A stretch of 64,000 nt of DNA, taken from NCBI GenBank assembly GCA_002591745.1, contig PDLQ01000020.1, positions 1 to 64,000 of the forward strand, written 5' to 3'. The notes beneath the pieces are model-generated. The model made no database searches, had not been told where the DNA came from, and saw only the letters and a program-made list of their open reading frames with translations. Below are positions 1,875-61,800 of the stretch, piece by piece (positions within the stretch are counted from its first letter, which is position 1; each line of letters opens with the position of its first letter). The stretch comes from Lewinellaceae bacterium SD302 (GTDB taxonomy: Bacteria > Bacteroidota > Bacteroidia > Chitinophagales > Saprospiraceae). Position numbers and translations under genes: made by a program.

Positions 1875-3266
1875 ATGAAGAGAAGAGACTTCCTCCGGAC
1901 CTCGGCCGCTTTGTCCATAGCGCCGTCATTATTGTCCGCAACCAGCACTGCTACTTTGTCAGCTAAAAACAAGCGTGTCGCCTTATTGGGCTGTGGCTGG
2001 TACGGGAAAAATGATTTGCTGCGTCTCCTGCAGGTCGCCGATGTGAAAGTGGTCGGACTGTGTGATGTAGACGATCAAATGTTGACGGAGACCCTGGCCT
2101 TACTCAAGGAAAGGCAACCCACCGCTAAACCGCCGGCAGTTTACCGTGATTACCAAAAATTGTTAACCAAAGAAAGGCCCGACCTCGTTCTTATCGCCAG
2201 TCCGGATCACCAACATGCCCTGATGGCAATTGCGGCCATGCAGGCCGGGGCGGATCTGTATTTGCAGAAGCCGGTCAGCCTGGATGTTTTGGAGGGAGAA
2301 GCCGTACTGGCCACCGCCCGCCAGCTGGGGCGTACCGTACAAATAGGTACCCAGCGACGCAGTACACCCCACTTGCTGGAAATGAAAAAACAGGTGCTGG
2401 ATAGTGGTCTGATCGGGAAGATCGGTCACGTGGAAATGTGCTGTTATTACCATATGCGCTTCGGTGGGAACCCATCGGTAAAAGAAGTGCCCGATCATTT
2501 TGACTACGAAGCCTGGACGGGGCCGGCACCGCTCATTCCGTACACCGGCTTGCCCCACCGGCGCTGGCGCGCCAGGCAAGAATACGGCAACGGCATCGTG
2601 GGCGATATGTGTGTTCACATGTTCGATACGGCCCGTTGGTTGCTCGGGCTGGGCTGGCCGGAGCGTATTCACTCCGTTGGTGGAATACGGTATGGTGAGG
2701 GAGAGACCTGGGCCAACATCACCGATACGCAGTTGGCTACCTTCAGCTACCCCGGACTGGACTGCGTCTGGCAACACCGGACCTGGGGGCCGAGCGTAGA
2801 CCCGGATTATCCCTGGGCACTTTTCCTATACGGAGAAAACGGTACGCTGAAAATGGACACCAAAAAGTGGAGCTATACGCCGAATAAGGGTAGGGGGGCT
2901 GACAAAGTAGCAGTGCTGAATGGTGAGCTGAAAAACCAGCCGCTAGCGGGCGAAGCACTCTACGAACGAAAGAAATTCCCCGAAGACCTGGAAGAGAAAG
3001 ACATTGAATTACACGTTGCCTCAGCCACCCGCGCTCACCTGCTGGACCTGGTGGAGGCCATTGACGAAAATCGTAGGCCGGTAGCCGACGTGGAAGAAGG
3101 ACATATTTCCACGGCCAGTTGCATTTTGGCCAACATCTCCCGTGACCTCGGTGGCCGGGTGTTGAGCTACGATTCGGAGCAGCATCTTGTCATCGGAGAC
3201 GAAGAAGCAACCAAGTTGTTGAAAAGGGATTATCGGGATGGGTACCAGCACCCTTATATAGGTTGA
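1875..3266 (+). CDS. Tat-exported Gfo/Idh/MocA family oxidoreductase
   Basis: A 463-residue NAD(P)-dependent oxidoreductase. It begins with a twin-arginine signal (MKRRDFLRTSAALS), so the folded protein is exported to the periplasm. After an Ala/Ser/Thr linker comes a Rossmann fold (VALLGCGWYGKNDLLRLL), then the family's LQKPVSLD-type EKP segment and a C-terminal alpha/beta dehydrogenase domain with WxHRTWGP. Such Bacteroidota proteins typically act on sugars or inositols, often beside GMC oxidoreductases, as here. Two copies of the dispersed CAAAGTAGCA motif lie in this one gene in opposite orientations. One is in the linker after the signal peptide; the other is in a loop (RGADKVAVL). They share an identical 21-bp stretch. 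The exact substrate is unknown. Confidence 0.9.
   Translation: MKRRDFLRTSAALSIAPSLLSATSTATLSAKNKRVALLGCGWYGKNDLLRLLQVADVKVVGLCDVDDQMLTETLALLKERQPTAKPPAVYRDYQKLLTKERPDLVLIASPDHQHALMAIAAMQAGADLYLQKPVSLDVLEGEAVLATARQLGRTVQIGTQRRSTPHLLEMKKQVLDSGLIGKIGHVEMCCYYHMRFGGNPSVKEVPDHFDYEAWTGPAPLIPYTGLPHRRWRARQEYGNGIVGDMCVHMFDTARWLLGLGWPERIHSVGGIRYGEGETWANITDTQLATFSYPGLDCVWQHRTWGPSVDPDYPWALFLYGENGTLKMDTKKWSYTPNKGRGADKVAVLNGELKNQPLAGEALYERKKFPEDLEEKDIELHVASATRAHLLDLVEAIDENRRPVADVEEGHISTASCILANISRDLGGRVLSYDSEQHLVIGDEEATKLLKRDYRDGYQHPYIG
1949..1958 (-). repeat. CAAAGTAGCA motif copy
   Basis: Inside the Gfo/Idh/MocA gene, encoding the linker after the Tat signal. Context GCTGACAAAGTAGCAGTGCT is identical to the copy at 2903. 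Confidence 0.9.
2903..2912 (+). repeat. CAAAGTAGCA motif copy
   Basis: Second copy in the Gfo/Idh/MocA gene, inverted with respect to the first, encoding ADKVAVL. Confidence 0.9.
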
Positions 3267-3330
3267 GGGAGAGAACTATTCTCAAGTTTATCCATTTGAT
3301 CCTTTTATCATTCCGACATTTTATCAGTAG

Positions 3331-7773: not shown

Positions 7774-9003
7774 ATGCATAGACAAAAAATTGAGAAGCGG
7801 GGCAACGAGCTTGTCATCTCATGGAAAAATAGCCTCTTCGCTGGAATCATACTGACTTTTATGGGTATGATCTGGACTTTTGTCGGCCTTGTCTTGGGTT
7901 TTGTAGAGAGCGAGCCGGTATTATTTGTTATGCCCTTTATTGGCTTCATGATTCTCTATATGGGACTGGTCTTCATGATAAATCGTACCAAGATTAGGGC
8001 TTCAATGCAAACGATTAAGGTCGAGCAAGGACCTTTGCCGTGGTTTGGAAATAAGGAAGTAAGGACTTCCGACGTCCAACAATTGTTCGTCATTGAAAAT
8101 GGACAAAAGAAGGTCAATAACAAAGTGACGCCACTGTACGCTCTGAAAGCAAAATTGAAGAGCAGCCCGCACAAACCGCTTACCCTGGCTGGTTTGCTCG
8201 ACGGAAAAGCCAAGGCACTGGAAATGGAAAAGGTAATTGAACGTTATCTTAATATTCAGGATGAGGCGATCAACATTCCGGAGGACCCCAGGTTTACGAA
8301 GTTCAAAGAGCGCTTTCCCGCGCTGAAGGATATAAAGTTGCCAGGACCGATAAACGAAGGGAAGAAGGGGGCTATTGAGCGTACCACTTCAACCGGTTAT
8401 AAATTCGATCTCGATACTGGTAACGAATTTGGAGAGTTGCTTTCTTCGGCTCCCGAAGTATCCGGCATGACCTCACGCTTACTGGAAGGCTTTGCTGACC
8501 AAGACGTCTTTGCCAGCCGGATGGGCGATCACGTAGAGATTACCGGAGAGGACCGGGAAATTGTCGGCCACGTACAGTATGACTGGTCCGATGGTCGCAG
8601 CGATGTCGCTTTCCGAATCAGGGGCAACGGTCATTCCACCGACATCTACGGCGAACAGGCCGACGGCCGTAAATACCTTTACTTCGAAGAAAGGTTATTG
8701 GAAGAGGTAGAACACCAACAATTAGGCTTCCAGCGAGACGTAGACCCTCCGAATATCGTGAGAAACGGAGACGAGAAGTACTATCGCCGCAATGAAGTGA
8801 CCGGTTACCGATTTGTAGACCACGGTCGTTCCGTTAATCAAGTAAACCAATGGATTTATTTTACTACGGCCACCCATGACCGCTTCCGAGTGGTCCAGGC
8901 GCCCGGCGGAAAAATGCGGGTGTACATCCAGGAATCGCTGGCGGGCGATAATTTACGGGTAGCTGAGAAAGTGAGCATTAAACGAGGAAAAGGCAGGAAG
9001 TAA
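7774..9003 (+). CDS. Membrane protein with DUF4178-like C-terminal part
   Basis: A 409-residue protein of unknown function. Two transmembrane helices (about residues 20-43 and 49-70) are followed by a soluble region of mixed alpha/beta character. The C-terminal third has two repeats of a pattern seen in DUF4178-like proteins (GHVQYDWSDGRSDVAFR, then YYRRNEVTGYRF and WIYFTT...DRFRVVQ). The DUF assignment is tentative. The gene stands alone and converges on the TonB receptor gene, with a gap of 92 bp that contains a short T-run hairpin and one CAAAGTAGCA motif. Confidence 0.75.
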   Translation: MHRQKIEKRGNELVISWKNSLFAGIILTFMGMIWTFVGLVLGFVESEPVLFVMPFIGFMILYMGLVFMINRTKIRASMQTIKVEQGPLPWFGNKEVRTSDVQQLFVIENGQKKVNNKVTPLYALKAKLKSSPHKPLTLAGLLDGKAKALEMEKVIERYLNIQDEAINIPEDPRFTKFKERFPALKDIKLPGPINEGKKGAIERTTSTGYKFDLDTGNEFGELLSSAPEVSGMTSRLLEGFADQDVFASRMGDHVEITGEDREIVGHVQYDWSDGRSDVAFRIRGNGHSTDIYGEQADGRKYLYFEERLLEEVEHQQLGFQRDVDPPNIVRNGDEKYYRRNEVTGYRFVDHGRSVNQVNQWIYFTTATHDRFRVVQAPGGKMRVYIQESLAGDNLRVAEKVSIKRGKGRK

Positions 9004-9059: not shown

Positions 9060-9069
9060 CAAAGTAGCA
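9060..9069 (+). repeat. CAAAGTAGCA motif copy
   Basis: Intergenic, between convergent genes; context TTTGGCTGT then core then ATGTTTGCC. Confidence 0.9.
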
Positions 9070-9095: not shown

Positions 9096-11618
9096 CTATT
9101 TCCACCTTACACCCACCAGGAAATTACGACCAGCCGCGCTTACCCCGCTGGCAAAGGTTCTGTAGTGAAGATCGAAAATATTCTCTACGCCGATATTGAT
9201 GCTTAGTCGTTCGCCGATCCGTCGTTGTAAGTTTAAATTAAGGGTACTCCAACCATAGGACCCCGTAAACTCGCCGGTATTCGGATCGATGGGGGTCAGT
9301 TCCAGGTTGTCGGAGGTGCCCGTACGGTCCAGTTCGTAACTGTTTTCCAACGTAATGATATTTCCCACGGCGTAATTATCGAATTGCTTGGCCAGTTGAA
9401 AGCGGAAACGGAGGCGCGCTTGCCAGTTCTCACTCGTGAAGCCTAAGGAGAAGTTGCCGTAAACCGGCGGAATATGATCCTGGGGAAGCTTCAGTAGGGC
9501 ACCATCATCGGCCCGTTGATTACGGATGCCTTCCAACCAGTGGACATCGCCACCCAAATATAAGCCGGATTCAAATTGCTTTTTAAAACCCAGGTCGGCC
9601 CCGTAGATCCGGGCGGATTCCGCGTTGACGTTCGCCTGTACCCGCAGCGTATCCCCGAAACTGATGAACAAATCACTACCATTCGGCAGGCTGAAGGCAT
9701 CACGGACGATCACGTTATCCAGCCACGTATGGTAACCGACGGCCCAGAAACGCCACCCGCCGGGTAAGTTGCGCTCGTAACCAAATTCCAGACTGTTACT
9801 ACGCTCACTACCCAGTTCCGGATTGGGGACCTGGATGAAGCCGTTACTTTCGCGAAATTTAGCAAAATCATCCACGTTGGGAGAACGGAAGCCCTGGGCG
9901 AAAAGCAAACGAATCCGGTGGCCACGGTGCTGGTAACGGATACTCGCCGCCCCGGTCAAAGCTCCGGTGGCATTCTTGATACCATCCAGGTAATTTTGTG
10001 GCCATTCCACGGGGTCATCGGCACTGAAAGTCGCCCCCAGCCACTGGCGGTTAAGTCGCAGGCCGGCTTGGGCGATGAATTTTTCACTTAGCGGATGCTT
10101 GTAATCTACGTATGCGCCAATGGTCGTCAGGCTACTACCGCTGCTGGGGTAGCGGGTGGGAATGACTTGATCGATCTCGGCATTGGCATCCACATCAAAA
10201 AGGGAAGCTGTGCTGATCACCCGGTCGTAGCGGGCGTCGATGCCGTATTTCAGTTGACGTTCATTGACAAAGGATTTTGCCAGATCCCACTGAAAGTTGC
10301 TACTGTATACATCTACTTCGCTAATCTCTCGTTCAGCCTGGTCATTGCGGCGGGTTATCCGGTCTTCTTCGATAAATTGCTGAGAAAAAAGGAGACTGGA
10401 GAGGTCGAAGAACTTCCCGCCCCGGCGATCGTCCAACCGTAAACTGGCCAGCAAGCGATTTTGTGGACCGTAATTCCATTCGGCCCAGCGCAGTTCGCCA
10501 TCACTTATTTCCGAAAGATTATCGTAACGGGGAACATCGGAGCTGGTACTGATTTGTAGATTACTACTAAGTTCGACTTTGTCGGCCAGTCGGAAGCGAA
10601 ATTTTTGAAGCAGATCAAATTGACGATAGGCCGTACCGATTTGTACGTTAGGATCTTCGTTGCGCACCACGCTGTCCTGGCCGTTGATCCGTTCGACGTA
10701 GAGATCACGGCGGCCAAAATTCGGGAAATCTTCCCGCCGGTCATCTCCGGCGCGCAGTTCACCAAAATCAGCAAAAGAAAGCTGAGTATAGCTGGCAAAG
10801 TGCTTATTACCGTATTCCAGGTTAAAGCCGGTAAGCTTTGCCTGGGAAGCGGATGCATAATTGATCTGCCCGCCCAATGACCAGCCCGGCTCGACGGTCC
10901 GGAAATCCGGTCTCTTGGTCCGGAAGTGAATGACCCCGCCCAGTGCGTCACTACCATAAGCCAGGGAGCCGGGACCGTAAATCAGTTCCATCCGGCTCAA
11001 GGCGTTTACGTCTACCGTAATGGCGTTTTGCAGATGTCCGTTGCGGTAAATAGCGTTGTTCATACGTACGCCGTCTACCACCAGCAACACCCGGTTAGCC
11101 TCAAAACCCCGTACAATGGGAGAGCCGCCGCCAAATTGGGATTTTTGCACGTATACTCCCGAAAGATCAGCCAGTGCATCGGCAGAATTACTGCTTTGCA
11201 AGAGTTTGATCTCTTTTTCACTCACTGTTTCTACCAAGTAGGGGAGCTCCCGAGCCTGCTCGTTGCGGCGCCCAATCACGGCAACGGTAGTAAGGGTGGC
11301 TGCAATGGGCGTGAGTCGGATCAGATTGACTTGATCTACAACAAGGCCTAGTTCGTTATCGTTGCCAATGATCGTCTCGTAGCCGAGGTACTGAAAATTC
11401 AGTTCCGTTTCTGTTTCAATATCAGACAGGCTTAAATTTCCCGCCGCATCACTCTGTCCTAGAAAATCACCCTCCGCATCGGTAGCCATTACGCCGGTGA
11501 GGGGGTAGCCGTCTTCGTCTTCGAAGGTAAGGTTGTAATCCGCCGTTTGGGCCGCCAGGGATGAGAAGGCAGTCCAGTAAAGAAGGATGATGAGAAAGCT
11601 TTTTGGGGGAAATGACAT
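9096..11618 (-). CDS. TonB-dependent outer-membrane receptor
   Basis: An outer-membrane beta-barrel receptor of about 840 residues. The chosen start is the ATG at 11618, which gives a good signal peptide (MSFPPKSFLIILLYWTAFSS...). A longer reading from TTG at 11636 would translate a dispersed-repeat motif and is less likely. After the signal comes a CarboxypepD_reg-like domain (about 30-110), then a plug domain (about 125-240) with VRGFEANRVLLVVDGVRMNN and IYGPGSLAYGSDALGG, then a barrel ending in FLVGVRWK with the terminal aromatic/basic residues expected of an outer-membrane barrel. The plug resembles the haem/haemoglobin/siderophore receptor group, but the ligand cannot be fixed from sequence alone. 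Confidence 0.92.
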   Translation of the reverse strand: MSFPPKSFLIILLYWTAFSSLAAQTADYNLTFEDEDGYPLTGVMATDAEGDFLGQSDAAGNLSLSDIETETELNFQYLGYETIIGNDNELGLVVDQVNLIRLTPIAATLTTVAVIGRRNEQARELPYLVETVSEKEIKLLQSSNSADALADLSGVYVQKSQFGGGSPIVRGFEANRVLLVVDGVRMNNAIYRNGHLQNAITVDVNALSRMELIYGPGSLAYGSDALGGVIHFRTKRPDFRTVEPGWSLGGQINYASASQAKLTGFNLEYGNKHFASYTQLSFADFGELRAGDDRREDFPNFGRRDLYVERINGQDSVVRNEDPNVQIGTAYRQFDLLQKFRFRLADKVELSSNLQISTSSDVPRYDNLSEISDGELRWAEWNYGPQNRLLASLRLDDRRGGKFFDLSSLLFSQQFIEEDRITRRNDQAEREISEVDVYSSNFQWDLAKSFVNERQLKYGIDARYDRVISTASLFDVDANAEIDQVIPTRYPSSGSSLTTIGAYVDYKHPLSEKFIAQAGLRLNRQWLGATFSADDPVEWPQNYLDGIKNATGALTGAASIRYQHRGHRIRLLFAQGFRSPNVDDFAKFRESNGFIQVPNPELGSERSNSLEFGYERNLPGGWRFWAVGYHTWLDNVIVRDAFSLPNGSDLFISFGDTLRVQANVNAESARIYGADLGFKKQFESGLYLGGDVHWLEGIRNQRADDGALLKLPQDHIPPVYGNFSLGFTSENWQARLRFRFQLAKQFDNYAVGNIITLENSYELDRTGTSDNLELTPIDPNTGEFTGSYGWSTLNLNLQRRIGERLSINIGVENIFDLHYRTFASGVSAAGRNFLVGVRWK

Positions 11619-11628
11619 TGCTACTTTG
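11619..11628 (-). repeat. CAAAGTAGCA motif copy
   Basis: Directly abuts the ATG of the TonB receptor gene (core then ATG), preceded by TTTTGCCTAG. Confidence 0.9.
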
Positions 11629-11761
11629 CTAGGCAAAATGATAAAACATTCTTAATTCAAAATTAGCTGCTTAAACGAGTAAATTAGACGTAAATATTAT
11701 GTTGGTAAATAACCAATACTGAAAGTTGAACGCTGAAGACGAATTACGATTACCGAGCTAA

Positions 11762-14798: not shown

Positions 14799-14819
14799 TG
14801 CCGGTGTTTCCTTAATCTT

Positions 14820-14829
14820 TGCTACTTTG
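14820..14829 (-). repeat. CAAAGTAGCA motif copy
   Basis: In the oxyR-M20 gap, 18 nt before the M20 start codon; context ATTTTGGTTAA then core. Confidence 0.9.
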
Positions 14830-14847
14830 TTAACCAAAATACCAACC

Positions 14848-16902: not shown

Positions 16903-17185
16903 GACCTTGTTTAAAAAATGTGTTTAATTTTTAATTATTAAACAAAAAGGTGTATTATTGTGAATGAACATAAAGTTCCCACATTTTACCACCTACTATA
17001 GTCCGTCGTATTATCGGCAATTCGATCAGATTCACCTCGGTCGATTGATTTATGGCTAACAAAGTAGCAAGGTGGAAATTTACAATTGATAGTTGTAATC
17101 ATATAAATGAATTTTTGTAATCAAATAGATGATTTGTGCGCTTATAGGCCAGTATGAGATCGATTTATAGGCCGTTTTAGAAAAT
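16903..17185. other. AT-rich leader upstream of the dcw cluster
   Basis: No gene is supported. This AT-rich stretch must hold the dcw promoter(s), but no unambiguous TAnnTTTG box was found. One CAAAGTAGCA motif (17060) sits in it. Confidence 0.5.
17060..17069 (+). repeat. CAAAGTAGCA motif copy
   Basis: Intergenic, about 120 bp upstream of the MraZ box; context TTTATGGCTAA then core then AGGTGG. Confidence 0.9.
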
Positions 17186-21316: not shown

Positions 21317-22798
21317 ATGCACTTACAGCACCTCATCCAGGACCTCAAACCACTTGCCCACCGCGGCGAGTTGGCTGGTCTGTGGGTCGAGGGAGTAGCT
21401 TTTGATAGCCGTAAAGTGCAGACCGATTTCCTCTTCGTAGCTGTTCCAGGGACCAAAGTAGATGGTTTTGACTTCATAGAAGCAGTGCTTGAGAAAGGAG
21501 CGGCGGTGATTATCACCGAAAGAAAGCTCACCGAAGTACCGGAAAGCGGGGCTACCGTTATTCAGGTAGAGGATGCCGCCGCCAGTCTGGCGATCCTGGC
21601 CGAACGTTGGTACGACCAACCAAGTAAAGGGCTGAAACTTATCGGAGTCACCGGTACAAATGGCAAGACGACGGTAACTACCCTGATGCACGATCTTTTT
21701 ACTGATCTGGGTTATAAATGTGGCCTGCTGTCTACGGTGGAAATAAGGATCGGAACGGAGAAGAGAACGGCTACCCATACCACGCCGGATGCTCTTTCCA
21801 TCAGCGGTAACCTGGCTGAGATGGCTGATTTTGGCGTCGACTACGTATTCATGGAAGTAAGCTCACATGCCCAGTCTCAGAAAAGAACCGCCGGTCTTCA
21901 TTTCACGGGTGGGGTATTCACCAACATGAGCCACGATCACCTGGACTACCATGGCAGCTTCCGGGAATACATCGACGCCAAAAAATCCTTCTTCGACGGG
22001 CTCGGAAAGGAATCTTTTGCCCTGGTAAACATCGACGACAAGCGCGGCGAGGTAATGATTCAGAACAGCAAAGCGAACAAAAAACGCTATAGTCTGCGCC
22101 AGTTAACTGACTTTCACGCTAAAGTGCTGGACAATAGCGCCGAAGGCCTTCATCTGACCATAAATGGTACGGAAGTGTACACCCAGTTGCTCGGTCGGTT
22201 CAATGCCTACAACATCCTGGCCACCTACGGCACTGCTACTTTGCTAGGACAAAACGAGACAGAAGTCCTGACTTCCCTGAGTAAGCTCAAAGCTGCTAGC
22301 GGAAGACTGGACATTCTGCGCCACCCCCAAACCGGGCTGACCGCGGTGGTGGACTACGCCCATACACCTGACGCTTTGGAAAACGTGCTGGAAACCCTGC
22401 GTGACCTGCTGCCCAAGAGCAGTGAGGAACACAAACTGGTCTGTGTTGTCGGAGCCGGTGGTGACCGCGATAAAACCAAGCGCCCCGAGATGGCAAAAAT
22501 TGCCGCCCGCCTCGCCGATTACGTCATTTTGACCAGCGATAACCCCCGCAGCGAAGACCCCAACGCTATTCTGGACGATATGGAAGCCGGACTGACCGGA
22601 GCCCCGAACTGGAATATTCGCCGGGAGGCCGATCGCCGTAAAGCTATCCAGCTGGCGGTGCAGGTAGCCACACCCCGTTCCATCGTATTGGTGGCGGGCA
22701 AAGGGCACGAAACTTACCAGGAAATCAAGGGAGAACGCTTTCCCTTCGATGACAAAGAAGAATTAATCAAGGCTTTCACTCAATATCCCCGGAACTGA
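21317..22798 (+). CDS. murE: UDP-MurNAc-L-Ala-D-Glu:meso-DAP ligase
   Basis: MurE, 493 residues, adds the third amino acid to the UDP-MurNAc peptide. The ATP-binding loop GVTGTNGKTT lies near residue 113. The DNPR motif (TSDNPRSEDP, about residue 408), diagnostic of meso-diaminopimelate-specific enzymes, is present, so the peptidoglycan should be of the meso-DAP type. The stop overlaps the mraY start by 1 nt (TGATG). An inverted CAAAGTAGCA copy encodes part of the loop ATYGTATLLGQNE in the central domain. Confidence 0.97.
   Translation: MHLQHLIQDLKPLAHRGELAGLWVEGVAFDSRKVQTDFLFVAVPGTKVDGFDFIEAVLEKGAAVIITERKLTEVPESGATVIQVEDAAASLAILAERWYDQPSKGLKLIGVTGTNGKTTVTTLMHDLFTDLGYKCGLLSTVEIRIGTEKRTATHTTPDALSISGNLAEMADFGVDYVFMEVSSHAQSQKRTAGLHFTGGVFTNMSHDHLDYHGSFREYIDAKKSFFDGLGKESFALVNIDDKRGEVMIQNSKANKKRYSLRQLTDFHAKVLDNSAEGLHLTINGTEVYTQLLGRFNAYNILATYGTATLLGQNETEVLTSLSKLKAASGRLDILRHPQTGLTAVVDYAHTPDALENVLETLRDLLPKSSEEHKLVCVVGAGGDRDKTKRPEMAKIAARLADYVILTSDNPRSEDPNAILDDMEAGLTGAPNWNIRREADRRKAIQLAVQVATPRSIVLVAGKGHETYQEIKGERFPFDDKEELIKAFTQYPRN
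22234..22243 (-). repeat. CAAAGTAGCA motif copy
   Basis: Inside murE; context GTTTTGTCCTAG then core then GTGCC. Confidence 0.9.
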
Positions 22799-27221: not shown

Positions 27222-29821
27222 AGGAAGTGAAGCAGGCACGAAATTTAAGAGTCATCGTGAGTGGTGGTGGAACGGGGGGGCACATCTTCCCGGCTATCGC
27301 TATTGCAGATGAGCTGAAGCGCCGTCTTCCGAATACCGAGTTTCTGTTCGTCGGGGCTGAAGGTAAGATGGAGATGGAAAAAGTTCCCAAGACGGGTTAT
27401 CGCATCGTGGGGCTGCCCATCCGTGGTTTGCAACGGCGTCTGAGCTGGGCAAATTTATCGTTTCCCTTCCGCCTCATCAGTAGCCTGTGGCAGAGCCGTA
27501 AACTCATCAAAGAATTTAAACCGGACCTGGTGATTGGTACCGGTGGCTACGCCGGTGGGCCTATTCTATACGCAGCCGCCAAAGCAGAGATACCTACCCT
27601 TATCCAGGAACCGAACGCCTTCGCTGGCTTGGCCAATAAGTGGGTCGGCCGTTACGTAGACGTGATTTGCGTGGCTTTCGACGGAATGCGAAAGTATTTC
27701 CCCAAGGGCAAGCTTGTCATCACGGGGAATCCGGTGCGGGAGGAATTATTAAATAGAGTAGTTGGACTTCAAAGTAGCAAGGCAGACAAAGACAGAAACA
27801 TCCTGCTCATGGGCGGTTCCGGTGGTGCAAAATCTCTAAACGAAGCCTTGGCAGCCAATACGGAACTGATCGCGGCACAACCCAATATTCATTGGACCTG
27901 GCAGTGCGGCAAGCACTATTACGAGCAATTCAGTGGTTGTGCCACGGCTCAACTTCCTAATGTCACCATTACTGCTTTCCTGGACCAAATGGATGAAGCC
28001 TACGCCAAAGCCGATCTGGTGATTGGCCGCGCTGGTTCTACCACCATCGCTGAGATCGAGTACCTGGGTAAACCGATCATCCTGGTTCCTTCCCCCTGGG
28101 TAACCGAAGATCATCAGACGAAGAACGCCAAAGCGCTCGTCAAAAACGATGCCGGAGTTCTACTACCCGATGCGGAGGCCAAAGAGAAACTGGTACAGAC
28201 CGTCTATGAACTTCTGGCCAATGAAGATTGGCTGAAGCAAATCGGACAAAACGCCAAAGCCCAGGCTAAGCCAGGTGCGGTAGGGCGGATTGTGGAGGAG
28301 GCGCTAAAGCTAGTTGGCGTACAAGATGACTACGAATCCACCACTAATGCAGTAGGGCACGAAGATTTGCTCACCACCTCAGGTAAAGGCATCACATCAG
28401 ATCATTCCACCATTCCACCATTTGATCATTTAGAAGAAGTTTATTTCATCGGCATCGGCGGCATCGGGATGTCGGCCCTGGCTCGTTACTTTAACAGCCG
28501 TGGCATCAAAGTGAGTGGTTACGACCGCACGGATACGAAACTGACCAGGGCGCTAGTAGATGAAGGTATTGGGGTGCACTATGAGGCCAAAGTTGATCAC
28601 ATCCCGGGAGTTGCTGCCGCTTCAGATCCTGGATCCCTGAATTCTTCAATCCTCTACGTCTACACCCCTGCCGTTCCTGCAACCTTCCCCGAGCTCGTCG
28701 CCCTGCGCGAAGCCGGTAAAGAACTCTACAAACGCTCCCAGGTGCTGGGCATGATCAGTCGCGATCAACGCTGTGTGGCTATCGCCGGCACCCACGGGAA
28801 GACAACCACCACTACACTGACGACTCACCTGATGCGTGAGTGCGGTGTGGATGTTTCCGCTTTCCTGGGTGGTATTGCCCGGAACTTTGGAACCAATTAC
28901 GTCCACGGAAAAAGTGACTGGGTGGTTGTTGAAGCAGATGAGTATGATCGTTCCTTCCTGCAATTGCACCCGGAACTGGCCGTCATCCTCAGTACGGACG
29001 CTGATCATTTAGATATCTACGGCGACCACGAAACGATGCTGGAAAGCGGCTTTGGTGCTTTTGCCAGACAGGTTGACGAAACCGGTTTGCTATTGGTTCG
29101 CCACGGACTTACTGGCAGCTACATCGATCAGGTCAATACCTCCGTGCGCTTCTTCGGACTGAACGGTGGTGAGTGCTGCGCTGAGAATATTCGGGTAGAA
29201 GACGGGATGTTTACTTTTGATTACTACAGTCCGGACACCGATCCGCTAATGGGACTGAAACTGCCACTACCCGGCCGTCATAACGTGGAAAATGCCGTTG
29301 CTGCCATAACACTGACCATTGCCGCCGGCGGAGATGCCCGCAAAATCAAAGGTGCTTTGGCGAGTTTTAAGGGTATTGCACGTCGCTTCGAAACGGCCGC
29401 TAAGACTGATGATCTGGTTGTCATCGATGATTACGCTCACCATCCGACGGAACTTACTGCCGCTATCGGTGCAGCCAAAGAACTGTTCCCTGGTCGTAAG
29501 ATAACCGGCGTATTCCAGCCTCACCTGTACAGCAGGACCCGGGATTTTGCCGATGGTTTCGCTACTGCCCTGGACCTTTTAGACGAGGTGGTACTGTTAC
29601 CCATCTATCCGGCGAGGGAGGAAGCCATCCCGGGCGTCAGTAGCCAAATGCTGTTGGACCGGATGCAAAATGATAACAAAGAGCTAGTCCAGAAAAGCGA
29701 ACTGATCCAACGGCTGGTGACCAACCGTCCGGAGGTACTACTCATGCTGGGTGCCGGTGATATTGATGCGTTGGTGCAGCCCGTTGCCGAACAACTCACC
29801 GCCAAAAAACCATCGTTATGA
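27218..29821 (+). CDS. murG-murC: MurG-MurC fusion: lipid II synthase and UDP-MurNAc:L-Ala ligase
   Basis: One 867-residue ORF contains two complete enzymes that are normally separate. MurG occupies about residues 8-365: the GT-B glycosyltransferase with SGGGTGGHIFPA, IGTGGYAGGP, LLMGGSGGAKSLNEAL and GRAGSTTIAEI. MurC occupies about 407-867: GIGGIGMSALARYF, the ATP loop IAGTHGKTTTT, VEADEYDRSFL and the C-terminal DYAHHPTE block. A linker of about 40 residues (nt 28316-28436) rich in Ser/Thr/His joins them. Its DNA contains CATTCCAC/GATCATT phrases like the simple repeats found between genes here, as though an intergenic gap had become coding. MurG acts on membrane-bound lipid I and MurC on soluble UDP-MurNAc, so fusion may tether the first and last cytoplasmic steps. 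Frameshift error seems unlikely because no stop or start is needed at the junction. Confidence 0.95.
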   Translation: MKEVKQARNLRVIVSGGGTGGHIFPAIAIADELKRRLPNTEFLFVGAEGKMEMEKVPKTGYRIVGLPIRGLQRRLSWANLSFPFRLISSLWQSRKLIKEFKPDLVIGTGGYAGGPILYAAAKAEIPTLIQEPNAFAGLANKWVGRYVDVICVAFDGMRKYFPKGKLVITGNPVREELLNRVVGLQSSKADKDRNILLMGGSGGAKSLNEALAANTELIAAQPNIHWTWQCGKHYYEQFSGCATAQLPNVTITAFLDQMDEAYAKADLVIGRAGSTTIAEIEYLGKPIILVPSPWVTEDHQTKNAKALVKNDAGVLLPDAEAKEKLVQTVYELLANEDWLKQIGQNAKAQAKPGAVGRIVEEALKLVGVQDDYESTTNAVGHEDLLTTSGKGITSDHSTIPPFDHLEEVYFIGIGGIGMSALARYFNSRGIKVSGYDRTDTKLTRALVDEGIGVHYEAKVDHIPGVAAASDPGSLNSSILYVYTPAVPATFPELVALREAGKELYKRSQVLGMISRDQRCVAIAGTHGKTTTTTLTTHLMRECGVDVSAFLGGIARNFGTNYVHGKSDWVVVEADEYDRSFLQLHPELAVILSTDADHLDIYGDHETMLESGFGAFARQVDETGLLLVRHGLTGSYIDQVNTSVRFFGLNGGECCAENIRVEDGMFTFDYYSPDTDPLMGLKLPLPGRHNVENAVAAITLTIAAGGDARKIKGALASFKGIARRFETAAKTDDLVVIDDYAHHPTELTAAIGAAKELFPGRKITGVFQPHLYSRTRDFADGFATALDLLDEVVLLPIYPAREEAIPGVSSQMLLDRMQNDNKELVQKSELIQRLVTNRPEVLLMLGAGDIDALVQPVAEQLTAKKPSL
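27770..27779 (+). repeat. CAAAGTAGCA motif copy
   Basis: Inside the MurG half of the fusion, in the loop GLQSSKADKD before the second Rossmann domain; context TTGGACTT then core then AGG. Confidence 0.9.
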
Positions 29822-32109: not shown

Positions 32110-32467
32110 TGGATCAATGATCTAATGAAACAATGATTTAATGATCTAATGAAACAATGACTTAATGTAAATATGATTTGGGCTGGCATAGAAGCAATGT
32201 TGGTTGGTTCGATAGCGGAATACTTCGTTCGGACGATCGCCCTGCTACTTTGAAGTCCAAAAAATGATTTAGTGCAGTATTGATCTAATGATCCAATTAC
32301 ATTTTATCATTCAATCATTCAATCATTCAATCATTAGAACATTGCATCATTCTCTACAACACTCAAAACAACCCGGGACCAACTTACTGATACCAAGCAT
32401 TCGATCGAGTCCAAATTAAAAGGTGTGAACTCGCTGAGAACGGTTTTCGGGACCAAAATAATTGACC
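32110..32467. repeat. ftsA-ftsZ gap filled with AATGATCTAATGA / ATCATTCA phrase repeats
   Basis: No gene is supported. At 32112-32170 a phrase close to AATGATCTAATGAAAC is repeated several times. At 32309-32360 the complementary phrase ATCATTCA is repeated in tandem four or five times, so the two blocks could pair into a long AT-rich hairpin. Between them lies an inverted CAAAGTAGCA copy (32243-32252). A separate ftsZ promoter may lie in the last 120 bp, but no clear box was found. Confidence 0.7.
32243..32252 (-). repeat. CAAAGTAGCA motif copy
   Basis: In the ftsA-ftsZ gap between two phrase-repeat blocks; context TTTTTTGGACTT then core. Confidence 0.9.
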
Positions 32468-40200: not shown

Positions 40201-43200
40201 ATCTAAGCACTATTGTCCCACCCGCAGCGCAGCTGAATACGACTACAGAACCCAGTTTTTGCGGATCGAATGACGGTAGTCTTTCGGTAGTCGTCAATAC
40301 CAATGGCACTTACGAATACGCTCTCAACGATCCAATGGGGAATTATCAACCAACGGGCGATTTTGCGGACTTGAGCGCTGGAGAATACGTTGTTTACATT
40401 CAGCCCGTCAATGGCTACGTACCCGCCTGCCAGGGAAGCATTGTCGTTAATTTGGAGCAGCCCGCGCCCGGTGATTTTACCGTGACAACGGAAGCACCTT
40501 CCAACTGTGGCAGTGCCGACGCTAGCGTAATTATGCAAGCCATAATCGTTGGGCCGGATTACGAATACCAGCTCTTTAACCCGGAAAATGGAACATTACA
40601 GACCTCGGAAAACGGCGTCTTTGAAAACCTGACGGCCGGAAGTTACGAACTGGAACTACTCACCAGCACCGTGGCGGGTTGCTCTACGAGCCAGACCATT
40701 GACATCAACAGCGAGGAAACGCCGCCGTTGGTGGTCAGTACACAGCATGACCCGACCTGGTGCGGCGGACAGGATGGACAGATCATCATTGCCGCCCCTC
40801 CAATCAATGCGAACTACCTCTTCGGAATCGACGGACCCGATGGAGACCTCAGCCCTAATGGCGACTTTAGCAACTTGACAGCTGGAAACTACGAACTGGT
40901 TGTCGTGGGCCAGAGTGGGGGAGCGGAGTGCTTCACCACCCAGTCAATCACCCTGAGCGAAGGAACGATCGCTGGATTCTCTTTGGAGAGTGACTCACCG
41001 ACCGGTTGCGGTAGCAACGATGGTAGCATCCAGGTCACGTCTCAAGGCGGAACGCCCAATCCACTCTTCGAATTGAGGGATTCTTTGAGCCAGGTGATTG
41101 CGAGTAACAGTAGTGGATTCTTCGGAAATCTGCTCGCCGGAACTTACACGGTGAGCCAGTACACCAATCAGGAGTCGTTTTGTGCTTTCACGGAAACGAC
41201 AACGCTCATCGCAGTCGGTGCCCCGGCGGTCATAGTCGGAACCACGAATGAACCGAGCCAATGCGGCTTGAGCGACGGCAGCATCCAACTGGAAAACCTG
41301 GATGGCGGTGATTATCAATATGCGCTCAGCCCGGATGGCCCGTTCGTCGACGAACCAATTTTTACGAATTTGCCGGCTGGAAATTATCAGGTCTACGCCC
41401 GCCGCGCCGAAGCTGATAACAACGATTGCGCCACGGTCATCAGCGTGAGCCTGGAAGCACCGCCGACCCCGGACATTACAGCGGAGGCCGTGCTGAATAA
41501 TCCATTCTGTGTGCAGTCCGACGCCATGATCGTGGTGACGCCTCCAATGGACGAATTCCAGTCCGTTGAATATCGTTTGGTTGATCCGAATGGAAACGTC
41601 AGTGACTGGAGCAATAACACCAATTACGACGGTCTCGACCCCGGAAACTATCTCGTAGAGGTTCGCTTCAACGGCAGTGATGATTGCTTGAGCTTGACCG
41701 CAGTAACGGTAGAATCGGGTAACGGCCAGCAAGCCAGCCCGGCGGTTATCGTTGATCAAATCAATGAGGATATTTGCGGTGGCCAAGTAGCAATGCTAAC
41801 GTTAGCGGCGGCGGACGCTGCGTCCATTTACTTCAGTCTGGACGGAGGGCTAACCTACTCCGCCCAAACCGACTATATTGCTCTGCCGCCCGGAAGTTAT
41901 CAACTCATGACGGCCGTCAGTGCCAGTGGTTGCGGAGCCACGGAGCCGATGACCATTGAAATCGAGTCGATCAATACCATCACACCTCCTGAAATGTTGG
42001 TTACCGACTCCGAAAACTGTTCGGAAGATGACGGCAGCATCCAACTAACGGGCGGAGCGGACTACCTGGAATACAGTATCGAAAACGGAGACAACTGGCA
42101 AACTGAGGCCACTTTCGAAGACCTGCCCACCGGAGCCTACAATATTCTGGTACGTTCTCAGAATGAGGCTTGTGTCTTACCCGAGCCACTCACGGCGGAA
42201 GTGGAGCAATTGAATGAGGTGCTGATCGAAGGCGTTAGTGCGGCCTCTGCAAATATTTGCTCGGGGACGGGAGCCTTTATCGCCATTCAGGCCTCCACCA
42301 GTCCTGCTACTTTGAAGCAATACTCCATCAACAACGGTATCGACTGGAGCGAAATGCCCTTATTCGAAGAGCCCGCCCCCGGCACTTACCAAATCCTGGT
42401 TAGAACGGTAGGGGAGAACGGCGAAATGCTTTGCCAAACCGCCTGGCCCCAGCCCATCACCATCCAGGAAGTAACGCCCGGTGAACCACCGGCCCTGGAA
42501 CTGGTGAGCGAGCAGTTCCCATCCGATTGTGAAAGCGAAGATGGCGCACTGGTCTACGTGGCCACCGGCGGCGAAGCCCTGGAATACAGCATGGACGGCG
42601 GCGAAAACTGGCAAAGCGACGGTAATTTCACCGGCCTCGCGGCGGGATTGTACAGCCTGAGCGTGCGCGAACCCAACGGAGATTGTAGCTTCGAAGCCGT
42701 AGCTACTAACTGGTTACTGGCCCCCGGACAAGCCCTGATCACTGATGCACTGGTAAGCCAGCCCACCGACTGTGGCGTGGCGGACGGCAGCATTACGCTG
42801 GAGGTGGAAAATAACGTGGGCGTCGAGTTTAGTTTTGACGGTGGTATGAGTTGGCAGAGTGACCCCTCACAGGAAAATTTACCACCCGGAACCTACCAGC
42901 CTCAAGTACGCGCCCTGGACGCAAGCTGCCTGAGTAGCTGGGCTGAAAGCATCGTCCTGACCGAGCCGGCAACGGTTGAATTAGGGCAAGTGATGACCAC
43001 TGCGGTCAGCGATTGTGGTACTCAAGACGGTGCTATCCAACTCACGGAAACGCAGCCGGAATGGGAATATCAATTGGAGGGAACGGAAACCTGGAGCTCC
43101 GAAAATGAATTCGAAGCGCTTGCGGCGGGCAGCTATTTCGTCTACACCCGTCACGCTGACCACCCCGGATGTGTAGATAGCCAGTTGGTGGTGGTCGCCC

Positions 43201-46026: not shown

Positions 46027-46036
46027 CAAAGTAGCA
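46027..46036 (+). repeat. CAAAGTAGCA motif copy
   Basis: Intergenic, 17 bp after the adhesin stop; context TTTTTTCGGCTT then core then ATGCTG. Confidence 0.9.
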
Positions 46037-46226: not shown

Positions 46227-49200
46227 ATGCCGCAGTTGCGCGCCCTTTTCTGCTTTATTTTTTTTCTGACGATGACCGGCTTATCGGCTCAGTCGGCGAT
46301 CACGGCCAACCTGAACGTGACAGGGGGAAGTGCTACGCTGGAGGGCTACACTGACCCCGGCAAAACTTTCATCACGCTTTTGAGTACGGATGCGGTGCCC
46401 ATTTTCGAGGCGCGGCTGGAGATTCGTTTGTCGGTGGGGCAGCGGACCTATGTGTTGAACCGCAACGGCGAGGCCGGGACGATCAGCTTGGTCAGCAACG
46501 TGCCGACTTTGTTACAGGGCTTAGACCTGGCGGAATACTTTACGCCCAACGCCCTCGATCCTTTTCAGCGGCAGCAGCTGCTGGACGACGGTGGCTTGCT
46601 ACCGGACGGACAAGTGAGTGTCTGCGTGGCGCTCTACGATATACGTTTTCCGGGAGCACCTCCGGCGAGTAACAACGCCTGTGCACTGGCCTATTTCGAG
46701 TACGCCCAGCCGCCGTTGCTGATCGACCAGCCCGATCCGGTGGCCCATAGTATTCCTCAGGCGATCAACTTCCAGTGGATTCCGCAGCAGTTTTTTCCGG
46801 CCAGTTACACGATTGAAATTTGGGATGCCCAGCCCGATCTGGGTTTCGGGCAGCTTTTCATCGTCAATAATACCCCGCCCTTGGTGCAGGAAACGGTGGT
46901 GAGTAGTCAGTTCGTGCTGACCGATTTCTATCCCCTGTTATCGCCGCAGACGGATTACATCTGGCGGGTGCGGGCGGAGGATTTGGTGCAGAACCGACCA
47001 TTCATTAATGACGGCTTTTCGGAGCTGGGCTTTTTCCGGATCGCCTCGGATGTGGTGGCGAATGGCTGCTACTCAATTGAAGACCTGACGATTGAAGGAG
47101 GGGTGGAGAATCCACTCGTCATTAGCTATTCCGCGGCGACTGAGGCATTCAATAATGCCCACAGCATCGAAGTTCGCGACCCAGTTACCGGGTTATTACT
47201 AATTGAGCTGGACATAGACAGTGGAATCCTGTTGCCTTCTAATCACCGGGGGGTACAAGCTTGGACCTCCGGACCGATTACGGAAATTGAACCGACGACA
47301 TTGCCCTTGCGGATCGAAATTTGCGTAAGCTGTGATAATGGGGTCGATGAAATTTGCGAAGTTGTTGTCTACGAAGGGCCACCGTCAAACATCGATATTT
47401 TTAACGACGGCAATCCCTGTCCGCCACCGGTGGATAACCTGAGCTGGGTACTGGCGTCAGAGAACTCGGTAAGCCTGAGCTGGACGCCGGAGCCGACCGC
47501 CACGGGTTACACCATCGACGTCCGTAATCTAAGTATCCCACCGACTACTGCTTCTGACGCTCCACCGGAGATATTTTATGAAACGGAGCAACCGCTGGAA
47601 AATTTAACCCCGGGCGACCAGTACCGGGTGGTCGTTTGCTATCAGTGTAGTGATACGGGAGAAGACCGCTGTGCCACCATCTACTTCGTACTGCCGGATT
47701 TGGCGGACTGCAACCCCGTCCTCTCACCAGTGGACATCGCCGTAACACCCACGACGGCCGGTTTTTCCTGGGATGTGGACTCGGAGTGGGTAGACGGCTA
47801 CAGCTTGCGGGTGGGCGCGGACAGCGTGACGATACCCGTGGGGCAGAACAGCTACCTCTGGGAAGGACTGAACGAAGGAACGGCTTACGCAGCGGAATTG
47901 TGTGTTTACTGCCCCGGTGGAGACAACACATTCCGGAATTGCGTGAACGTTAGCTTCACGACGCCCCAGTTCATTTGTGCGGATGAGCCGATGTTGGATC
48001 AGGGGCTGTCGATTAGCAGTCAGGCTAGTGGAGGAATTTTGGTGGATTGGTCGGGCTTGCCAGCCGAGGTTGCCGTGCAAGGAGGCATCGTGACTTTAAC
48101 CAACACTGCTACATTGTTAACCATAAGCAGCCATACTGTGGAGGACAATCAGTCTTTCCACGTATTCGAAGCTCCGGAGACCGAACCGCCTTATCTGGTC
48201 CGGTTTTGCCTGGAATGTGAGGGACAAACAGCATGTTACGAGCAGGAAATCATACCGCCAGGCTGCGATGACCTGACGATCAGCGGACTGAATGCGGCCG
48301 AAATCGGGAGCGATTTTGTCCAACTTTACTGGGCTGGGCCGAACGGTTTCGCGGTGGATGAATACCGCTTGCGCAAAAGGCTGACCGAAGGTGATGATAC
48401 CGATTTCGAGCCGCTGGGCACATCGACGGAAAGCCAGTTTCGGGTGGAAGGTCTACTGCCGCTGCGGACCTACGAGATCGAAATTTGTTTTGCCTGCGAC
48501 GCCGAAAACCAGCGCTGTGACACCCTGGAAATCACGACGGAGGCGATCAATTGTAGTCAGGCGGCCGAGGAGCCGGTGGCCTATGCCTGTGGCTCCGAGG
48601 CGGACATACCGGAGTTTGGCCAGGTGCCGCTGGTGAGTCATCTGAGTCCGGGCGACAGCGTGGTGGCCGGTGATTTCATCGTGCTGATCACGAACGTGGA
48701 GAGCACTGGATCGCCCTGGCGGGGGAGTGGCCGGATCATGGTGCCCTATCTGAACGAAGTGGAGCTGAGCGTGGATTTCGAGGCCATCGAGGTCAACGAA
48801 AATTGCCGGATGACGAGCGGGGAGATGATCGTCAAACCACCATTCGCCAACCTGCTGGAAGACCTGGGCGACATGATCGACGACGTAACGGACGTGCTAG
48901 GCAGCGTTGATGATATTTTAGGGGATATTCTGGATATTTTGGGAGCTGGAGGAGCCGCCGCCGATTATTTAGGGCCAATTTTGGAGATACTGGAAGTGCT
49001 GGAGGAGCAATTGGACAACAATCCGTTCATCAGTCCGGAGGCGGAGAGCCTGCTGGAAGATGCAATTTTATGTCTTCAAAGTAGCATAGCAACTGGCAAT
49101 CCCGCGGCCTGTACCGAGATTCTGGAAGAACTCCAGGAAGTCCTGGCGGAGACTTACGCGGCGGATTACCAGGTGCCTTTTCACCGGGCGGAAGGGCAGG

Positions 49201-55407: not shown

Positions 55408-56040
55408 ATGGTTTTTGACTTCAAAGTAGCAAGGTTGGTAATAGCATTGATTGTTTTTCCCATTTGCCATCTCGCCTCCCAAACCGCCTGGCTAAACAAC
55501 CCCGCCAACAAGCTGATAACGATATCAGAACCAATAAACGGATACATCGTCAAGCCAGCAACTGGTGAAAAAATTGCCACTGACTTCTCGCCAACTTCCG
55601 TGTATACTACCATTCAATCAATGCTGGGAGTAAGTGAAATGGATACGACTGAGTTCACAAAAAACTGGATAAACACCAAGAAGTTGGAAGCCGTGTATGG
55701 AAACAAAGCGGTCACGGCCCATGGAGAATTGACTTTTGTAGCAGATACTGGAGACTACATCAGTGGAGGTGTAGTTTACTGCCTGGACGTTGAGAACGGC
55801 GATAATGTGAGAAATTTTATTCCCTACCGGTTGGAAAAAGATGTGCTTTCTTTAGTGCCGTACAGTGATGAAAACTACGAATTATACAGAGCACTAACTT
55901 TCCTCTGTTTTGGGGATTTCGCCAAAGCCTACGAAGAAAATCTATGCATCGAAAGTGTCAAGGGCGAAAAATCCTTGAATTTGGTGGAACTCTATTTGAA
56001 GAAATGGGAGAGTGGAAGCCTGCAAAGAAAATGTCATTGA
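55408..56040 (+). CDS. Secreted hypothetical protein of the toxin-linked island (second copy)
   Basis: A 210-residue protein. Its N-terminus MVFDFKVARLVIALIVFPIC reads as a signal peptide, but codons 5-8 are written by a copy of the CAAAGTAGCA motif, so the start may have been captured from that element. The mature part has no recognised domain. It is followed by a lipoprotein gene with a 1-nt overlap (TGATG), repeating the arrangement at 53902-55375. Confidence 0.65.
   Translation: MVFDFKVARLVIALIVFPICHLASQTAWLNNPANKLITISEPINGYIVKPATGEKIATDFSPTSVYTTIQSMLGVSEMDTTEFTKNWINTKKLEAVYGNKAVTAHGELTFVADTGDYISGGVVYCLDVENGDNVRNFIPYRLEKDVLSLVPYSDENYELYRALTFLCFGDFAKAYEENLCIESVKGEKSLNLVELYLKKWESGSLQRKCH
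55422..55431 (+). repeat. CAAAGTAGCA motif copy
   Basis: At the extreme 5' end of the 55408 gene, encoding FKVAR; context GTTTTTGACTT then core then AGGTTGG. Confidence 0.9.
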
Positions 56041-58645: not shown

Positions 58646-58834
58646 TTTGGAAATTTGAATAGCTGGTTTCCTCACTAGGTGCTTTTGCTCGAAATTCCCA
58701 CCGCTACTTTGTTAGCCAAAATCAAAAATATACCCTCCCACAAAAGCCCTTGAAATCTTACCCAATAATCACCAAAATAACTATCTTTATTACATCACAG
58801 CTAACGGCCGACGGTCCACCCTATTAACCTATTA

Positions 58835-61800
58835 ATGCACTTCTTTTTTTACCAAATATTGCTCCGGTTAGCCGGTGTTTTCCTGCTCTTTTTACTGGCC
58901 AGCCACTTACTAGCCTCCGGACCCGGAAAGCCCTTGCCCACCCACTCGATGCCCGATTTCGTAGCTCAATTAGAAGCGGCGATCGGCAATAACCCAAAAA
59001 TAAAGGCGGATTTTACCGAAGATGAATGGCTGGATGACGAGCCCGTTACGGTGACTGATATTTCTGTCGACGACGTGGCTAAAATCGGAGAATTATCGGG
59101 GGAGATGGCTAGCAAAGTAGCAGAGGCCAGAGCGGTGATCCAGCAGGTGATTGCTTCCGGACGAACAGTTTCCGACTTCCTGAGCGGAGAACTGGCTGAA
59201 ATGCCGATGGGCTTCTCCCGCAACATTGGCGGGGTAGAGATTTACGTGGCCCTGGCCGAAATGCGACTGAAAGCTACCCACAGTGAAGTCGACGTTTTTA
59301 TGCAGGTTAGTTTTCCCGGTGTGGATGATCCACTGATCCTGGGCGCTTACGACGTGGAGTTTAGTCGGCAAGGTGGCTTTGGTGATCTGAACCTGCGGCT
59401 ATTGGGTACCTATGGCATCGATATTGCGAGGGGCAAAAGCCGACTGGTTTTCTATCCCGGCGACCCCGAGGCCAGTACCGGCACCTACGCCCGCGTTACC
59501 TGTGGCGGGGTAGAGGAGCTGAGCCTGGACGCCACTCTGGTTTTGAGTCGTGACTGGGCCGTACCCGTTCGTGGTGGCGAGGCGCTGACCGATTCTATTC
59601 TAGCTTCCCGATTGCCGCTCGGCCCCGGTGGCCTGACGCCCGATTTACCCATGGGCATCCAAAAGGCGGCCCGCGTCCACTGGGATTTTGCGATCAATGT
59701 AGCACCCGGACAACAGGGAGGGGGCTTCCTGATTCAGACCGGTAGTCGGGATACTTTCGCTATTGCCCGTTACTCCGACGTCCACATTTACGCCGATAAC
59801 GTAGCCCTGGACTTCAGTGACCTCGTTAATCCTTCCGGGATGGAAGTTCCGCCAAATTATGAGTCACCCTATCTGATCGGCAGCTCCGGTAATTATTTGA
59901 TGAATTGCTGGCGCGGTGTCTACATCGGCGGCATCGCCATCCAGACGCCAGAGCAGTGGCGGGGCGAAGGAGCCGAACCATTGGTCGTCTACGGCCGCTC
60001 CATCCTGATCGACGAGCTGGGCTTTACTGGCAACCTCGGCGTAGAAAACCTGCTGCCGTTGGATGAAGGCAACGCCGATGGCTGGGCCTTCTCGGTAGAT
60101 AGCCTTGAATTTACCTTCCTGCACAGCCAAGTGCAGCGCTTTGGAATGGCGGGGTTAATCAACGTACCACTACTGGCCAAAGCGACCCCGGAAGACGAAG
60201 ACCCACCCCCGGCCGACGCCCCCCTGGAGCCTGATGACTGCCTGGATTACGTGGCCGTAGTCGAACCCGGCAACCTCTACGCTTTTACGGTGACCACCAA
60301 CGAGCAGTACGATATTCGGATGCTCAAAAAAACGAAGGTGACCATTGACTCCAGTTCGTCTTTGGATTTACGTTACCAGAGCGGGACGTTCACGGCCACC
60401 GCCACCCTGCACGGTTCAGTAAACATCAACTTTGAGGCCGGAGAGGCCTTTAAGCTGGAAGCCAGCGGCATCGGTTTCAATCACCTGACTTTGAGTAACC
60501 AGGGCGGCATAACCGACCCAGGAGACTGGGACCTGGGCGACGGCATCAGCACCGAACTGGGCGCTTTTAGTCTGTTGATTAACGACGGTGGCATGGTCAC
60601 CGAAGACAACGGTCAGCCAGCGATGAACCTGGAAGTGATCCTCAACGTCGGCGTAGATAGTCTTGGACTGACGGCCCAAAGCGCCTGTAAAATATTGGGT
60701 GAGTTTATTGTCAACCCGGAAACCGGCCGCCAGCGTTTTGTCTATCGTGATTTTCAAGTGGATGCCCTAGCCATCGACGCCAGCAACAGCATTTTTAAAC
60801 TCACTGGGAAAGCGGCTTTCTACCGTAACGATCTTAAATTCGGCAGCGGATTTTACGGGGCCGCGGCTCTAAAACTTACCGCTCTGGACAGTGTTGGGCT
60901 GGACGTGGCCATGCAATTCGGCTCCGCATATGACGATGCGGGAGAGAAGTACAAATATTTCTTCGTCGATGCTCTGGCCCGCTTCGGCAGTGCCGCCCCA
61001 CCCATCGGGATGTTCACCCTCCACGGGGCCGGTGGCGGCTTTTGGGTCAATATGCGCGATCAGACCTACGTAGATTCGGAATTACCGGATATTACCACCG
61101 CTGATCAGGCGGAAGTGGCGGCCGAAAATTTTTCGGAGATCAGCGAACTGGCCAACAGTAACGATACGACGGCCCTGGCCAGTTTTATCGGTCAGACCTT
61201 GTCCGGTCGCCAATTGCTGCCCGATGAAGACGTAAATTTCGGCGTAAAACTTACCCTGGTCGTGGCCACAACCTCGCCGAATGAGGAAGCCATGAGCATC
61301 AACGGTACCTTCCAGTTGGAGGTGTTTGAAAATGGCGGTTTCGCGGCGGCCATTTACGGCAACGCCAGTTTCTATGGCCCCATTAACTGGGATAATACGC
61401 CGCCGGAGGAGGGGATCACGGCACTGTTTGATATTAGTTACGTCAGTGATCAGGCGGGTAGGCGGTTCGACGCGTCGATCGACTTGTATTTCCTACTCGA
61501 TCCGTTCCGCGGTACCGCTGATGGAGATGCTACCGATCCTACGGGTCAAAAATGGGTGATGCCGGGAGAAGGGTACGCTGGGTCCATAAAACTTTACGCC
61601 CATTTCGATGATGAAGAGTGGTATCTCTGGCTGGGCGGCACCGGTACGGCCGGGACCATACCGCAGTTATCCATCGGGTTGATCGCGAATGGCGGGCCGG
61701 TACCGGTTAATTTAAGTGCAATCGTTTCAGGTTATTTCATGGTGGGGACTGATATCGGTACTATGCCGCCCTTGCCGGCTTACGTTTCCCAGCTTACCGG

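Follow-up and report, generated by a model that had tools for sequence, protein, structure and literature searches.

The 64,000-nucleotide stretch analysed here, called the window, lies at the start of contig PDLQ01000020.1 from Lewinellaceae bacterium SD302 and contains 14 exact copies of the 10-mer CAAAGTAGCA. The coordinates and strands given for all 14 in the original prediction are right, and dinucleotide shuffles contain 0.08 copies on average and at most one (n = 100). Six one-mismatch copies had also been claimed; these exist, but the total is ten, as those at 16752, 30456, 56369 and 59695 had been omitted. Exact and one-mismatch matches together number 24, compared with a shuffle mean of 3.22 and a maximum of 8. 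Below we argue that the 10-mer and its flanks are probably a self tag resembling the DNA uptake sequences (DUS) of Neisseriaceae and the uptake signal sequences (USS) of Pasteurellaceae, recognised by a predicted surface receptor.

Two copies lie within the open reading frame (ORF) of a GFO/IDH/MocA oxidoreductase (1875-3266, + strand), one antisense (1949..1958, -) and one sense (2903..2912, +). The copy at 9060..9069 (+) is found between the convergent ORFs 7774-9003(+) and 9096-11636(-), while the one at 11619..11628 (-) is immediately 5' of an ATG at the start of the latter ORF, a TonB-dependent receptor. At 14820..14829 (-) a copy runs antisense in the first part of ORF 14767-16128(+), a peptidase M20, and the next is noncoding (17060..17069, +). 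The copy at 22234..22243 (-) is antisense in ORF 21317-22798(+), putatively MurE by the usual order of the cluster, and all nine aligned congeners are gap-free across it. At 27770..27779 (+), the motif is in sense orientation in the length-variable linker of a fused ORF (27218-29821, +) with two parts that are presumably MurG-like and MurC-like; here, 9 of 28 alignments are gap-free. A noncoding copy at 32243..32252 (-) is located upstream of ftsZ (32462-33943). Further on, copies are antisense in an ORF of 3,912 residues (42305..42314, -, in 34272-46010, +), noncoding between two giant ORFs (46027..46036, +) and within a 2,325-residue fn3 ORF (49077..49086, +, in 46227-53204, +). The last two are at the 5' end of ORF 55408-56040(+) (55422..55431, +) and within an ORF of 1,629 residues (59113..59122, +, in 58835-63724, +). 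The earlier count of six intergenic copies is a fair description: by rough gene calls, four are outside genes (9060, 17060, 32243 and 46027) and two at gene starts (11619 and 55422).

The enrichment is real and genome-wide, neither confined to the window nor close to what a Markov model predicts. The source genome (5,478,864 bases in 147 contigs, referred to as C1, C115 and so on; 51% GC) holds 1,344 copies of CAAAGTAGCA, 669 on the plus and 675 on the minus strand, at a density of 245 per Mb, while the reversed word occurs 16 times (7 and 9). A fourth-order Markov model predicts 2.06 copies in 464 kb, where 113 are found. Overrepresentation on both strands without a net orientation bias is also what is expected of DUS and USS.

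The flanks shared by the window copies are genuine, and could be sharpened on 113 sites (first 464 kb) and then on 315 sites (1.2 Mb). The core sits in an asymmetric motif of about 30 bases, consisting of a T-rich tract, RRCT, a short spacer, the core itself and RtG. In the T-rich stretch, positions -12 to -7, 3.5 of 6 bases are T, compared with 1.7 further out. The spacer between RRCT and the core has two bases at 179 of the 315 sites and a single T at 68, while another 68 belong to neither class. On the 3' side, the core is followed by R, often T, and a G at +12 that is present in 96% of the sites of both spacer classes.

The core is nearly all-or-none. In 794 kb there are 203 exact and 99 one-mismatch copies, compared with 2 and 75 for the reversed core; i.e., exact copies outnumber single-mismatch copies, as they do for DUS and USS. 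Just 40 of the 99 one-mismatch copies combine the T-rich flank with the G; in 30 of them, the mismatch falls on core position 3 or 9 (counted from 0). Such sharpness bears on a second idea of the original prediction, a nucleoid-protein site. In its wider form, the motif would be bound by a protein that organises or segregates the chromosome (of nucleoid-associated, SMC-loading or macrodomain type), for which there is no evident reason why the core should be far sharper than its near-misses.

Coding and noncoding counts are approximate, as they come from a simple custom ORF and codon-score gene caller and not from a standard annotation. By these counts 105 of the 203 copies are noncoding, though noncoding DNA makes up only 11.9% of the sequence (88.1% coding). 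The 98 coding copies are divided into 53 sense and 45 antisense, and 70 of them share one phase. A preference for noncoding DNA together with many coding copies is again typical of DUS and USS. The noncoding excess would also suit a promoter, terminator or other regulatory element, and some facing pairs, 22-120 bases apart, could form hairpins. However, the 98 intragenic copies occur in both orientations, the noncoding copies are least dense where genes converge (5 in 9.8 kb, compared with 30 in 22.2 kb where genes diverge), which is the opposite of terminators, and the flanks fold barely better than shuffled sequence (-18.8 and -18.0 kcal/mol). We therefore regard a regulatory element as highly improbable.

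How the copies arose could be studied at the 15 of 98 coding sites that are alignable with congeners from the DNA sampled, the other 83 not being alignable. At 13 of the 15, at least one relative is gap-free through the motif, and at two none is. Where the local identity exceeds 0.5, at four sites, none of the 14 alignments has a gap (C1:5759, 3/3; C1:40758, 1/1; C1:109420, 1/1; window 22234, 9/9). At one site the sole relative is longer than the source sequence. Because most alignable sites have a gap-free relative, substitution at tolerant places seems to be the main source of the copies, the evidence being weaker at sites of low local identity. USS copies have been argued by Redfield and colleagues to be non-insertional from the same kind of reasoning (PMC1626085). 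A very small mobile element, also raised in the original prediction, or a REP-like repeat (repetitive extragenic palindrome) would instead have spread by insertion, and is mostly contradicted by these alignments. Presence in a single species and an invariant core with degenerate flanks would agree with such an element, as would gaps in which the source sequence is the longer, found at 4 of the 15 sites and at one of them in both its relatives. The strong preference for one reading frame, the even spacing and the lack of a palindrome speak against it; with the gap-free sites, they leave it largely refuted, with a probability close to nil.

Along the genome the copies on each strand are spread more evenly than random: over 58 bins, each 20 kb long, the variance-to-mean ratio is 0.41-0.42. 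The coefficient of variation of the spacing is 0.745, compared with 0.98 +/- 0.066 for random placement, and none of 1,000 simulations is as regular. In six contig stretches of at least 100 kb, the longest motif-free stretch is 12.6 kb, compared with a random mean of 22.8 kb, and none of 1,000 placements is as short.

The arrangement of close pairs depends on orientation. Below 2 kb, same-orientation pairs number 13 where 80.1 +/- 9.0 are expected, convergent pairs are in excess (63 compared with 39.4 +/- 6.3) and divergent pairs fall somewhat short of expectation (31 compared with 40.6 +/- 6.2). In the 1-2 kb bin there are 24 convergent (19.5 expected) and 6 divergent pairs (19.8 expected). 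Below 250 bp there are 22 convergent and 12 divergent pairs, about 5 of each being expected, and one same-orientation pair where about 10 are expected. Regularity beyond random combined with close opposite pairs is shared with DUS and USS. The exclusion between same-orientation copies over about 2-3 kb is a new feature, the spacing having been analysed in this genome only. Two of the 13 close pairs come from C115, at about 213488-217232, where a segment is apparently duplicated: a same-orientation pair with a spacing of 657 bp is repeated there at a distance of about 3.1 kb.

As the exclusion acts between same-orientation copies and not between facing ones, a copy should serve the DNA on one of its sides. 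The 1-2 kb bin, where divergent pairs are rare and convergent ones are not, suggests that this is the T-rich side, although this rests on 30 pairs and was noticed post hoc. We infer that the action of a copy is one-sided, probably towards its T-rich 5' side. The even tiling would follow if each imported length needs no more than one copy.

One-sided action would also be expected of a Chi-like site, i.e. a directional signal that switches an end-repair nuclease of the AddAB/RecBCD type from degradation to recombination and so marks self DNA. The asymmetry of the motif, the exclusion of same-orientation copies, the shortage of divergent (6) but not convergent (24) pairs at 1-2 kb and a density near that of Chi in E. 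coli all fit this. However, of 2,836 pairs that are 10-60 kb apart, 1,435 (50.6%) have the same orientation and the correlation with GC skew is -0.03, so the replication-strand bias of Chi is absent. The strong noncoding excess is not expected of Chi either, and Chi is normally common to a genus, while 20 congeners have the core at chance level. We consider a Chi-like site unlikely. For a chromosome-organising site, the very even coverage of each strand and the directional exclusion are favourable, while there is no orientation trend along the chromosome. Such sites are usually common to related species, yet nothing comparably strong was found in nine sampled congeners. Together with the sharpness of the core, this single-species occurrence disfavours the nucleoid-protein idea, and makes a chromosome-organising site of any type distinctly improbable.

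Counts in congeners and in the family are at chance level, so the motif is specific to this species among those examined. CAAAGTAGCA has 1-12 copies in each of 20 genomes of the same genus, and CAAAGTAGCANNG occurs 1,266 times in the source genome but 0-13 times in each of 397 other genomes of the family. The 20-base form TGGCTAACAAAGTAGCARTG has one match among the genomes of 84,980 species (the source genome's own records possibly excluded) and a 19-base form has one in viral contigs. Both were rejected as further tag bearers, as each locus has a single core copy, which indicates chance. In nine congeners, k-mer counts over 40-100 kb each revealed no other dispersed word of comparable strength; the best, in congener G013, is found in six bins and is clearly weaker than CAAAGTAGCA.

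In Riemerella, a transposon screen found ComEC, DprA, ComF, RecA and four uncharacterised proteins to be essential for transformation (PMC8459023). One of the four is a DUF5689 protein, predicted to be co-operonic with a CarboxypepD_reg outer-membrane protein (OMP), and for this reason DUF5689 was searched for here. It is present in one of 21 genomes of the genus, namely the motif bearer, as a 695-residue lipoprotein with three DUF5689 domains (C115:8514-10601), directly after a 933-residue OMP with CarboxypepD_reg and Plug matches, both below the Pfam cut-offs. The lipoprotein scores 119.5 against the 475-bit cut-off of the NCBI M949_1556 model. Motif copies are located upstream of the pair (C115:5538) and, by the ORF calls used here, at the 5' end of its second member (C115:8537). 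In a sample of 298 family genomes, the OMP has matches (E<=1e-30) in 233 but in none of the five congeners included, and in 26 of 29 loci it adjoins a DUF5689 relative, the remaining three loci being incomplete. A search of solved structures gave nothing for the DUF5689 protein, and for the OMP only a match to a T-cell receptor chain at E=0.3. In the open-access literature DUF5689 is named in one paper only.

ComEC is present in the source genome and in all 18 congeners searched, and DprA and HHH proteins in the source genome and in 19 of 20 congeners; the one that lacks them is a 55%-complete genome. Of the Riemerella set, ComEC, DprA, HHH and a CarboxypepD_reg-type OMP beside a DUF5689 protein were searched for and matched, by domain only and for the OMP below cut-off, which makes them a candidate for a Riemerella-type machinery. 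In that genus, R. columbina shows a preference for its own DNA in competition, and the k-mer table of the study holds only A/T-rich words that are left for further work, with no clear uptake sequence emerging from it (PMC7965970). This differs from the source genome.

From these observations we suggest the following mechanism. A surface receptor, for which the DUF5689/OMP pair is the candidate and which would not be a pilus, would recognise the motif on free DNA and direct the import of the DNA attached to it, favouring that of the own species over other DNA. Import would proceed via ComEC, followed by DprA, RecA and recombination into the chromosome. The bias at import would then create and keep copies by point mutation and recombination, purging near-misses. 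That uptake is the biased step and that the pair is the receptor is what we infer.

Regular spacing, close opposite pairs, a preference for noncoding DNA and more exact than mismatch copies are described as common attributes of uptake sequences (PMC1626085). The motif shows the published genomic hallmarks of DNA uptake sequences except sharing with relatives, and the original suggestion of an uptake sequence is in this respect supported by indirect genomic tests of spacing, strand, noncoding preference, near-misses and origin. The USS of Haemophilus and other Pasteurellaceae, AAGTGCGGT with AT-rich segments, likewise has a short asymmetric core, an AT-rich flank and many copies, which are over-regularly spaced, prefer noncoding DNA, exceed the near-misses and are not insertions (PMC1626085). 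Here, the sequence and the phylum are different, the motif belongs to one species only and, as written here, its T-rich tract is 5' of the core. In Haemophilus, the way the motif faced within a fragment made no difference to uptake (PMC1939737), which would make a directional step a novelty. DUS of the Neisseriaceae are also overrepresented words of 10-12 bases, with dialects that differ between species (PMC3630211), unlike the congeners sampled here, which have no dialect of comparable strength.

Several points weigh against an uptake sequence. Species with known uptake sequences use pili, while no type IV pilus or type II secretion ATPase (T2SSE family) was found in this genome, although pilins and ComP were not searched; in this, it differs from both Haemophilus and the Neisseriaceae. 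Two weak T2SSE matches, covering 86 and 45 codons within frames of 946 and 636 residues, were rejected as pilus ATPases and read as short P-loop matches in UvrA-like and MutS2-like proteins, judging from length and position. The known uptake sequences also occur in some relatives of their bearers, whereas neither sharing nor a dialect was found in the genomes sampled here. The OMP is common, yet k-mer counts in 40 kb each of 10 OMP-bearing family members revealed no tag of this build, so the pair does not predict the tag. With a single positive species, motif and DUF5689 would fall together by chance in 1 of 21 cases. The density is about a quarter of that in Haemophilus or Neisseria, and at 32.2 kb the longest gap between same-orientation copies is no more than mildly short, being matched in 33 of 1,000 simulations. 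Regarding origin, gaps in which the source sequence is longer stand at 0.16 at motif windows compared with 0.05 at control windows, and many gap-free alignments have a low local identity, on average 0.35 at motif windows and 0.66 at controls in the same proteins. As sharing and pilus machinery were not found and the genomic tests are indirect, we call the motif uptake-sequence-like and not a proven member of the family.

It can be speculated further, as a tentative and somewhat doubtful proposal, that this is the first uptake-sequence system outside Neisseriaceae and Pasteurellaceae and one without a pilus, in which an OMP resembling TonB receptors and a triple-DUF5689 lipoprotein read a directional tag of about 30 bases and import the DNA on its T-rich side, the two orientations tiling the genome separately. 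Two proteobacterial families are known to have uptake sequences, the origin of which is a matter of debate. The original prediction knew of no such element in Bacteroidota, and our searches of the open-access literature likewise found no uptake sequence there. If true, this would be a third, independent case in another phylum. A single tagged species with untagged congeners, as examined here, would allow the molecular-drive model to be tested from a known starting state. Further, the orientation-specific spacing would be a new quantitative handle on the direction of DNA entry, and the DUF5689/OMP pair a concrete candidate for the DNA receptor of Bacteroidota.

Dispersed words in other family members were also considered. 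The words of genome G215 were rejected as a dialect because they form a tandem repeat at one place. In G071, CCTTTCGGCGA has four copies, counted in the 40-kb sample only, and was not taken as a dialect either. In the sample of 298 genomes, GGCACGCCCAA has 70 copies in G124, 57 in G032 and 27 in G213, far below the source-genome motif, and was not accepted as a comparable tag. It is a weaker dispersed word, with 0-1 copies of its reverse in G124 and G032; G124 has 38% GC in the 40 kb read.

The most abundant of these words is of a different kind. In four species of the genus to which G099 belongs, GGCCGAGCAGAC has 721 (G099), 770, 293 and 677 copies and none in reverse. It sits in a repeat with more than 60 conserved and hairpin bases, and 25 of 28 copies are outside ORFs of at least 150 residues. 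The repeat folds more strongly than shuffled sequence (-39.6 and -34.7 kcal/mol) and is built of a hairpin, AGGGCCGAGCAGACcTGCGAGC, a second hairpin and often GGCCCCAAAA at the end. By eye, the stems vary in sequence between copies while the pairing is apparently kept, and neighbouring copies mostly alternate in orientation (19 of 26). With its different, hairpin-rich and mostly noncoding build, it was rejected as a dialect of the tag described here. We read it as a structured intergenic repeat, and it may have a role in uptake there.

In the source assembly, two contigs of about 5.5 kb with 34% GC contain zero copies of the motif and are either a foreign element or stray contigs. Within the window, the MurG-like and MurC-like parts of 27218-29821 form a single open frame of 867 residues, while in congeners they are separate, adjacent matches. 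The two giant ORFs, 34272-46010 and 46227-53204, adjoin each other, and the fn3 domains are found in the second.

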